Shown here: positions 21,583 through 24,537 of the stretch, piece by piece
How the letters are laid out: each line of letters starts with the position of its first letter
How positions within the stretch are numbered: position 1 is the first letter of the stretch
Source: Bacteroidota bacterium
GTDB lineage: Bacteria; Bacteroidota; Rhodothermia; Balneolales; HLUCCA01
Direction: 5' to 3'
NCBI GenBank assembly: GCA_020832235.1
Contig: JAFIEZ010000007.1
Coordinates: forward strand, 186,001-250,000
Length of the DNA: 64,000 bases
Program-made: the position numbers and the translations under genes
The notes under the pieces: model-generated
Databases searched by the model: none
What the model was told of the DNA's origin: nothing
What the model saw: the letters and a program-made list of their open reading frames with translations, nothing else

Positions 21583-24537
21583 ATGCGCTATTTTTCTACG
21601 GTCATCCTTATCCTGTTATCAGCTCAACTCGGCATGGCGCAGTTCGCCCAGCCATTTGGTTTCAATCTCATGAATGAGCGGAATAAGCCGCATATTCAAT
21701 GGCTGTCCGCTGAAACGGAACATTTTATCATTACCTATCCGGCACATCTTGCCGGGATTGAAGCCGAAGCGGCAGCCATTTCAGAAGAAACCTATGCAGC
21801 GCTTTCAGCCGGTCTTAATGTAACTTTCGACTATAAAATAAGAGTCTACCTTTCCGATGAAGATGAAATCATAAATGGTTTTGCAGTACCGTTCTGGAAC
21901 GCGTATACCAACATCTGGGTAAATCTGAACGACGTGGCCGTGGCATGGGCGGGCCAAGAGAAATGGATGCGAACCGTACTTGCTCACGAACTTGCCCATA
22001 TTTTTCATTTTGAAGCCATCAAGTCGAACCTGCCTTTTCTTGGTATTTTGGGTACCGGACCTTCCCTCCCTGTACCCTGGACAGAGGGTATTGCCCAGTA
22101 CTTTACGGAACCCTGGCATGCGTTGCGTGGCGATATGCTGCTCAGACGAGCATTTTACGATGGCAGGCCTTCTCATCAGGACGGTTCATCGGTTTTAAAT
22201 GGACAACTTATGTATGCTGCCGGTAACGCACAGCTACGGTATTTTACCCAAATTCACGGCGACTCTACCGTTGCAGAAATTCTCGCCTATCGTGATTCTC
22301 TTTTATTTGGCCGTATTACAGTGCATAACTTCAACAAAGGATTTAAGGAAGTTACCGGTCAGTCTTTTGCTGACTTTGAAGATGAATGGCGGCGTCACAT
22401 GAATATTTACTATCACACACTGGCTTCACAGATGGAGCGCAGCGATTCCTTGCTGGTCAAACCTCTGAGTGTTAACGGGATGTTCGTTCGTTCATATCGT
22501 TTCAGTCCCGATACCACCCGCATAGCGGTTGTTTCCACGGAATCTAGTATTCGACCTGTTACTCGGCTGGCCATCGTAGACAACGATTCCACACAAAACC
22601 ATCGTGTCATTTTTGAGGGGAGTATAGGATCGGAGCTCAGCTGGAGCCCAGATGGTTCGCATATCGTATATGGGGCAACTGCACGTGGAGAACACGGCTC
22701 ACTTGTCAATGATCTGTACCGAATTAATGTAGAAAATGGCAAAAGAGAGCGGCTCACATTTTCGGCCCGTTCTACCCGACCTGCCTATATGCCCGATGGT
22801 GAGCACATTGTTTTTGTTCAAAATCAGATGGGAACCGGTAATTTGATGCGTATGAATCTGAGTTCCGGTGAGCAATTACCGCTTACCCAGTATACAAACG
22901 ACACCCAAATTGGTCATTTTGATATCCACCCAGAAGGCACGCACATAGCCTATGCAAAATTTGATGAACTTGGGCACCGCACCATTACATTGATACAAAT
23001 GGATAATGGCCATAAAACGGAGCTTACCAATCCAGCTATAGACGACCGTACGCCCATTTGGAATCCTGAGGGAACGTTGCTTGCTTACACCAGTCTTCGC
23101 GACTATGTTTCAAACGTTTTTGTAATCGATCCATTTGCTGAAAACCCTGTTGAAGAGCGTATTACCGGTCTTTTTGCAGGTGTCGCTGCCTGGCAGTGGC
23201 TCCCCGCTGACTCTCTGAACACGCAAGGCACACTCATTGTATCAGGATCCGATACGAAACGGGATTTTTCCGTATACCGTATTGATGCTTCTCGCAGAGT
23301 AGTTTTGGATGAACCCCGCGTCAACCCATCCTATACAGCCTGGTTAACCAAAAAACCGGATAATCCACTGCCTGTCCATATACCGCCCAATGACGCACTC
23401 ATAATCGATCGCTATACGTACAGCTCTTGGAGAAATATTTCTCATGTTTCCACCATACCGTTTCCCTATTTCAGCTCGGCTAATGATTACGGACTGGGAG
23501 CAATTACGGTATGGGGTGAGCCGTTGGGTAAGCACTTGTTCACTGCAGTCGGAGCCCTATCCTTCACAGAATTTGCAGATAATAGCCTGTTGTTCGCAAG
23601 CTATATAAACAACCAATTCCGTCCTGTATGGAGCTTAAACGCCTATCACAACAGCTTTACGGGCCGAATATACGAACGCGATTACCTGGTTACCACCAAT
23701 TCCGGTGGGTATATTCTGGGCTCGCTGCCGCGCGACTGGGTTGATTCACCCTTTGTTCGTACCGACTTATATAGCCGCTTCCGGGCTGAATACACCAACG
23801 CAACCCGCTTTTTTACCGTCCCCGACAATCCACAGCTTCCCCCTCCGGCTGATGGCTGGCAAACCGATATACGTATCGGACTACGCATGACAAAAGCCAA
23901 ACCACACGCATTTAACTTGATTCATCCGCTGGATGGTCGGGGAGTGGAGCTTCGTACTACGTTCGCATCTAAAGCAATGGGTGGGGAAACAGAGTATATA
24001 CGTCCGGATGTGATGGCATACACCATACTTCCAGGATTGGGTGACAGTAGATTCTACGTTTATGGCCGGGCATTGGCACAATGGGGAGACAGCTTTCCTC
24101 AAGATTATATAGGTTTTTCGCGCTTTGACGATATTCAGCTAGGAGGGTCACTTCCCGGATTAGATATTCTCTATGCCGATGCAGAGCGCGTACGAGGTTT
24201 CAGCGATTATGTTGTTGGGAATCGAATGCTTTTTGGCACAATTGAGTATCGGATGCCTTTCGCAGACAATCTGAACACCACTATTCTTGGCTTAGTTAGC
24301 TTTGGCAGAACTACCTTAGCCGCATTTGTTGACGGTGGTGTCGTATGGAACGATGGATTTACTCCTGATGCTGCCGCAGTTGCACGAGCCGGTGCAGGAG
24401 CGGAGTTAAAAAATGTCTTGAGTCTGGGCGCACTCTCAATTGTCCAGAGCCTGGGTTATGCCCAACCCGTTCCTGACCTTGCCACTTCTCGCAATCAGGA
24501 AGTCTATTACCGTATTCGTGCCGTAATCCCGTTCTGA
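21583..24537 (+). CDS. Outer-membrane protein: zinc-peptidase (MA-like) + TolB-type propeller + Omp85-like barrel
   Basis: A 984-residue exported protein with a signal peptide ending at MAQ (about 17-19). Residues ~40-290 form a gluzincin-like domain: HELAH at 135-139 and a candidate third zinc ligand Glu168 in PWTEGIAQYF. Residues ~290-600 carry TolB/PD40-type propeller repeats with Trp-Ser-Pro-Asp-Gly or equivalent turns (SWSPDG, IHPEGTHIAY, IWNPEGTLLAY). From about 620 onward the sequence is amphipathic beta, with VRGF at 870-873, GN and EYRMPF just after it, and a terminal Phe, as in Omp85/BamA barrels. No POTRA domain is evident. Role unknown; perhaps surface protein processing or envelope assembly. 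Monocistronic, convergent with the ABC gene. Confidence 0.8.
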   Translation: MRYFSTVILILLSAQLGMAQFAQPFGFNLMNERNKPHIQWLSAETEHFIITYPAHLAGIEAEAAAISEETYAALSAGLNVTFDYKIRVYLSDEDEIINGFAVPFWNAYTNIWVNLNDVAVAWAGQEKWMRTVLAHELAHIFHFEAIKSNLPFLGILGTGPSLPVPWTEGIAQYFTEPWHALRGDMLLRRAFYDGRPSHQDGSSVLNGQLMYAAGNAQLRYFTQIHGDSTVAEILAYRDSLLFGRITVHNFNKGFKEVTGQSFADFEDEWRRHMNIYYHTLASQMERSDSLLVKPLSVNGMFVRSYRFSPDTTRIAVVSTESSIRPVTRLAIVDNDSTQNHRVIFEGSIGSELSWSPDGSHIVYGATARGEHGSLVNDLYRINVENGKRERLTFSARSTRPAYMPDGEHIVFVQNQMGTGNLMRMNLSSGEQLPLTQYTNDTQIGHFDIHPEGTHIAYAKFDELGHRTITLIQMDNGHKTELTNPAIDDRTPIWNPEGTLLAYTSLRDYVSNVFVIDPFAENPVEERITGLFAGVAAWQWLPADSLNTQGTLIVSGSDTKRDFSVYRIDASRRVVLDEPRVNPSYTAWLTKKPDNPLPVHIPPNDALIIDRYTYSSWRNISHVSTIPFPYFSSANDYGLGAITVWGEPLGKHLFTAVGALSFTEFADNSLLFASYINNQFRPVWSLNAYHNSFTGRIYERDYLVTTNSGGYILGSLPRDWVDSPFVRTDLYSRFRAEYTNATRFFTVPDNPQLPPPADGWQTDIRIGLRMTKAKPHAFNLIHPLDGRGVELRTTFASKAMGGETEYIRPDVMAYTILPGLGDSRFYVYGRALAQWGDSFPQDYIGFSRFDDIQLGGSLPGLDILYADAERVRGFSDYVVGNRMLFGTIEYRMPFADNLNTTILGLVSFGRTTLAAFVDGGVVWNDGFTPDAAAVARAGAGAELKNVLSLGALSIVQSLGYAQPVPDLATSRNQEVYYRIRAVIPF

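Follow-up and report, generated by a model that had tools for sequence, protein, structure and literature searches.

A predicted zinc metallopeptidase joined to a TolB-type propeller and an Omp85-type barrel in one exported chain of a Balneolales bacterium

Omp85-type barrels normally insert or export proteins, and the present locus raises the question of what a zinc peptidase and a propeller do in front of such a barrel within a single polypeptide. In the window, the whole stretch of 64,000 nucleotides of DNA that was analysed, one gene encodes an exported chain of three domains, a gluzincin peptidase, a TolB-type propeller and an Omp85 barrel, in which no POTRA domain was detected. This architecture, which the original prediction had read from the sequence, finds support in profile matches, in structure models and in approximately 90 relatives, and the domain limits proposed there (residues 40–290 for the peptidase and 600–984 for the barrel) were right to about 10 residues. 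The chain is probably (rough probability 0.6) an outer-membrane-anchored, periplasm-facing zinc metallopeptidase that resembles BepA and is fused to its barrel platform.

The gene, the features of which are collected in Table 1, lies on contig C13 of a host genome of 3.38 Mb in 20 contigs; the named organisms related to it are of the Balneolales/Rhodothermales type. Because the TatD-type nuclease gene upstream is divergent and the ABC ATPase gene downstream, which ends 1 bp from the peptidase-barrel gene, is convergent, the peptidase-barrel gene apparently forms its own transcription unit; a scan for promoter and terminator consensus sequences did no better than shuffles. No lipobox Cys was found at the N-terminus of the 984-aa sequence. 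When the neighbourhoods of relatives were compared, neither a conserved partner gene nor a neighbouring gene that names a substrate was found. The neighbours are kept within the genus only, L046 being syntenic and all other relatives not, and therefore provide no operon evidence.

Table 1. Features of the peptidase-barrel gene (positions in the window) and of its two paralogues (positions in their own loci).
Feature	Residues	Coordinates	Strand	Basis or remark
Whole gene	984 aa	21583..24537	+	ORF limits exact; ATG start
Signal peptide-like N-terminus, MRYFSTVILILLSAQLGMAQ	1–19	21583..21639	+	sequence; cleavage site judged by eye
Gluzincin (clan MA) zinc-peptidase domain	~36–290	21688..22452	+	AF2 model, PDB fold matches, profiles, Pfam
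NGxA, nearly invariant	98–101	21874..21885	+	N98, G99 90/93; A101 89/93
HELAH, predicted two zinc ligands and general base	135–139	21985..21999	+	helix 97–114 (domain numbering); 92/93 sequences
E168 in WxEGxAQY (here WTEGIAQY), predicted third zinc ligand	168	22084..22086	+	domain-model helix 133–144; 92/93 sequences
Candidate transition-state tyrosine, YxxG	211	22213..22215	+	aligns with M1 YxKG; 92/93 sequences
TolB-type (PD40) beta-propeller	~288/300–574	22480..23304	+	Pfam, NCBIfam, profile, fold searches
Linker without POTRA	575–608	23305..23406	+	Pfam, full-chain model
Omp85-type 16-stranded barrel, terminal Phe 984	~609–984	23407..24534	+	PF01103, model
VRGF, loop-6 motif between strands 11 and 12	870–873	24190..24201	+	model; V870, R871, G872 73/73
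E888 of EYR (888–890), candidate barrel-wall partner of R871	888	24244..24246	+	71/73 core relatives
D917 of FxDxG, candidate barrel-wall partner of R871	917	24331..24333	+	Asp 71/73, Glu 2/73
Paralogue L038	1072 aa	1504-4722		HELIH; Peptidase_MA_2 above cut-off
Paralogue L039	1194 aa	1268-4852		HEFVH

The AF2 model of the peptidase domain, which was built from an alignment of 84 homologous domains, has a pLDDT of 86.8 and a pTM of 0.85. In this model the helix carrying HELAH adjoins the helix carrying E168 (domain position 137), which is the gluzincin arrangement, so that HELAH and the downstream Glu singled out by the original prediction come together on helices and the motif is not placed on an exposed loop. 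Judged from sequence and model together, H135, H139 and E168 as zinc ligands, E136 as base and Y211 would make up a complete gluzincin active site. The NGxA motif is probably the edge-strand motif that precedes HExxH. Foldseek matches of the domain at E ≤ 1e-3 were M1, M9 and M61 peptidases, and VIA structural re-alignment placed M30 lugdulysin at the top (Z 15.8, rmsd 6.2 over 230), followed by an M1 peptidase (Z 14.0) and M9 collagenase (Z 13.8, rmsd 3.8 over 212), with the M30, M1 and M9 alignments spanning 210–235 residues. The domain profile matches the M1 tricorn factor F3 (E 1.9e-4), the YxxG of the former falling on the YxKG of the latter. The GxMEN exopeptidase motif, which precedes HExxH in M1 enzymes, is absent from the protein (P0001) and from 92 of the 93 sequences, the string occurring in the remaining one, and the domain therefore cannot simply be called an M1 aminopeptidase. 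Membership of family M48 was suggested by Pfam, where Peptidase_M48 scores slightly below the cut-off on the whole chain and 22.4 against a cut-off of 20.3 on the isolated domain, covering only profile positions 16–84 of 186; the fold matches (M30/M1/M9) were given preference over it.

The middle of the chain is matched by Pfam PD40 (3.6e-9) and aligns with E. coli TolB with a Z of 25.6 and an rmsd of 2.6 over 244 (VIA-align). The best NCBIfam match is also TolB, at a sub-threshold 84 bits where the cut-off is 343, and it was reasonable to remark, as had been done, that annotation pipelines usually label such proteins only by the propeller. Fold searches with the whole chain list propellers only and are uninformative on the absence of barrels or peptidases. 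The domain N-terminal to the propeller is the peptidase and not TolB_N, and a search of the genome (G000) for TolB_N (PF04052), with positive controls, gave no match, although several TolB-like propeller proteins are encoded in G000; the propeller therefore does not duplicate that of a resident TolB. In the full-chain model the last propeller strand (562–568) and the barrel region, which starts from 609/620, are separated by a gap of approximately 35–40 residues. Pfam found no POTRA domain in the chain, whereas the classical definition of Omp85 asks for at least one.

The C-terminal part is matched by the Omp85 profile PF01103 at 25.8 bits against the Pfam cut-off of 24, and 45 of 66 relatives match the same profile at E ≤ 0.01. 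Sixteen long strands lie between residues 620 and 980 of the full model, so that the structure lacking a barrel, which had been named as a refuting outcome, did not occur; the alignment behind the model has 16 rows and confidence in the barrel is moderate, with 10-residue means mostly of 60–88 that fall to 34–48 in loop 6. The pattern first noticed in the sequence was confirmed, with GN at 879–880 following VRGF, then EYR, and Phe at the very end. A salt bridge of loop 6 is a hallmark of the Omp85 superfamily (PMC9355242), and the conserved R871, E888 and D917 are consistent with such a bridge. When the barrel profile was compared with PDB sequences, BamA was the sole family listed, at an E of approximately 0.5 that is too weak to count alone.

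Among 134 well-assembled genomes from the class, profile searches at a strict threshold detected the chain in 62, generally in single copy, and strong matches to the full family outside the class but within the same phylum are rare (G198, G240). More diverged chains that combine HExxH and PD40 with a barrel-like end are present in records of Gemmatimonadota, Latescibacterota, Acidobacteriota and Chitinivibrionales. A protein-only scan of the genome contigs gave no match, whereas an alignment-based scan did find relatives; the latter used HEL[AG]H and WxEGxAQY patterns and so favours sequences with an intact site, and the conservation claim does not depend on its rows alone. In the core family of 73 relatives, H135, E136, H139 and E168 are each present in 73/73, and this invariance, together with that of VRG (73/73), indicates that the motif set is not due to chance. 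Of 93 aligned sequences, which come from several phyla, 92 have all five residues (H, E, H, E and Y), and in the set of 40 rows gathered without use of the motif the catalytic residues are intact in 39.

The peptidase is the best-conserved domain of the chain, with a median identity of 0.55 (propeller, 0.37; barrel, 0.41) and near-invariant sites amounting to 18% (propeller, 5%; barrel, 9%), which argues that catalysis, and not membrane anchoring alone, would be under selection. The exception, a relative in genome G034 (L026:1501-4437, minus strand), has kept the full chain, yet its HExxH is changed to YEVAI, its third ligand to N, and its catalytic Tyr is lost. By its residues L026 reads as a natural pseudo-peptidase, and the site would therefore not be needed in every lineage. 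Its branch is very long, at 2.56 changes per site, in a tree made by a fast method, in which long branches were flagged (L026, L122, L165/166) and which was read no further than for broad clustering by class. The gene is absent from near-complete genomes of the same order (for example, G025, in one contig) and is therefore dispensable in the lineage. Copies broken by a frame break or an in-frame TGA are present at G026:C105:15067-17873 and G288:C3:291671-294595, and could reflect sequencing error or decay.

The host genome carries two divergent paralogues with the same order of peptidase, PD40 propeller and barrel, L038 and L039 (contigs C13 and C15). An alignment of the L038-family barrel with the barrel of the 984-aa family has a probability of 96.8% and includes the loop-6 and wall motifs, and relatives of L039 were matched widely across the phylum. 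POTRA-bearing Omp85 proteins are also encoded in the genome, and the 984-aa chain is therefore an extra. In addition, a patatin-Omp85 (PlpD-like) protein is encoded on contig C10 (L138:1258-3537, minus strand), so that two kinds of enzyme-Omp85 fusion coexist in the genome.

Maturation of the protein would start with Sec export, followed by BAM-dependent insertion of the C-terminal barrel, while the peptidase and the propeller would remain folded in the periplasm, directly beneath the barrel. We infer this location from the signal peptide, from the position of both domains N-terminal to an even-stranded barrel and from the precedent of PlpD, and a signal peptide and a TolB-like propeller also fit the periplasm. 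The propeller may replace POTRA domains as the docking module, and the peptidase may cut protein segments that reach the inner face of the outer membrane; its substrates would most likely be outer-membrane or exported proteins that are unfolded, have stalled or await maturation. Such action on proteins at the inner face is suggested by analogy with BepA on the BAM complex, with the difference that the platform would belong to the same chain, and the barrel might still insert or move proteins or might serve as an anchor only. The arrangement suggests a protease built permanently onto the protein-handling surface of the outer membrane.

Other readings of the same chain have to be weighed against this one. 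It is very unlikely that the peptidase domain binds without cutting and that the chain serves as a tether or receptor in the envelope: L026 is indeed a natural relative devoid of the catalytic residues, but this loss is exceptional and lies on a very long branch, and the five residues are retained in all but one of the aligned sequences, over several phyla. An autotransporter-like (type Vd) protein, the barrel of which exports its own peptidase and propeller to form a surface protease for external proteins, is also quite unlikely. In favour of such a protein, the peptidases of the nearest folds, M9, M30 and M1, include secreted enzymes. PlpD, moreover, was first described as type Vd, and a single exported chain that holds both barrel and enzyme suits a surface enzyme (PMC4104836); however, later work has placed the enzyme domain of PlpD in the periplasm (PMC11116518), the propeller of 275 residues would also need passage through the barrel, and the full-chain model contains no long cleavable linker.

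The original prediction had suggested a translocase or insertase that processes its cargo, the barrel inserting or exporting clients that are docked by the propeller and trimmed in transit by the peptidase. The joint retention of the three modules across the class and beyond agrees with this idea, as does the conservation of the loop-6 VRG and its partner residues, whereas no conserved client gene lies nearby, POTRA domains, the usual client-binding part, are absent, and conservation is lower in the barrel than in the peptidase. The trimming of cargo in the course of export is unsupported, and we regard it as unlikely; the roles assigned to the peptidase and to the propeller as processor and dock of cargo both lack a conserved partner gene, and the enzyme of PlpD stays in the periplasm and is not exported (PMC11116518). 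Doubtful, too, is the broader proposal of an Omp85 machine coupled to a protease, in which one chain would both insert or translocate its clients and cut them as they fold into or cross the outer membrane; such machines would be widespread in Rhodothermota/Balneolota, with divergent versions in several other phyla and up to three per cell. The periplasm-facing, membrane-anchored peptidase is the reading that we retain.

The combination of a propeller and an Omp85 barrel was described in 2014 as the WD40-Omp85 subfamily (Heinz and Lithgow, PMC4104836), and its members were called reminiscent of a BamA-BamB fusion (PMC4104836). As in the present protein, a TolB-like propeller is located directly N-terminal to the barrel without POTRA domains; TolB was named as the structure nearest to that propeller, and non-POTRA subfamilies were accepted as members of the Omp85 superfamily (PMC4104836). 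By contrast, no peptidase belongs to the 2014 description, in the text of which the word "peptidase" has 0 occurrences (PMC4104836), although its members likely overlap with the peptidase-bearing family. The protein is thus of the WD40-Omp85 type with a conserved peptidase; no report of a peptidase-propeller-Omp85 chain was found in the open literature. PF00149 is presumably the calcineurin-like metallophosphatase (metallophosphoesterase) family. On that assumption, the "Metallo" subfamily of 2014, whose PF00149 domain was termed a metalloprotease (PMC4104836), offers no peptidase precedent, and this label may be wrong. POTRA-less Omp85 barrels have been listed for a decade with their function unassigned, and a complete, strictly conserved peptidase active site on one of these classes makes it possible to test the WD40-Omp85 proteins as enzymes.

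With other gluzincins (Peptidase_MA_2; M1, M9, M30 and M61) the peptidase domain shares the fold, HExxH with E on the next helix, and the tyrosine of YxxG, but it differs in being fused to a propeller and a barrel and in lacking the GxMEN of M1. The propeller has the fold of TolB of the Tol-Pal system, but here it is internal, between the peptidase and the barrel. The patatin-Omp85 proteins PlpD and FplA likewise carry an enzyme ahead of an Omp85 barrel, on the periplasmic side (PMC11116518), although theirs is a lipase with POTRA and the present one a peptidase with a propeller; in PlpD, the best-studied enzyme-Omp85 fusion, passage of a folded domain through the barrel has been argued to be unlikely (PMC11116518). 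BepA (YfgC) of E. coli is, as proposed for the present domain, a periplasmic HExxH metallopeptidase acting at an Omp85 (BamA) platform (PMC8423444, PMC7950410), and this zinc peptidase promotes the assembly of LptD or degrades LptD, probably on BAM (PMC8423444). BepA is, however, a separate soluble M48 protein, whereas the domain described here folds like M30/M1/M9, and the present protein would be a one-chain counterpart of the BepA-BAM partnership that allows joint study of the protease, the docking module and the barrel.
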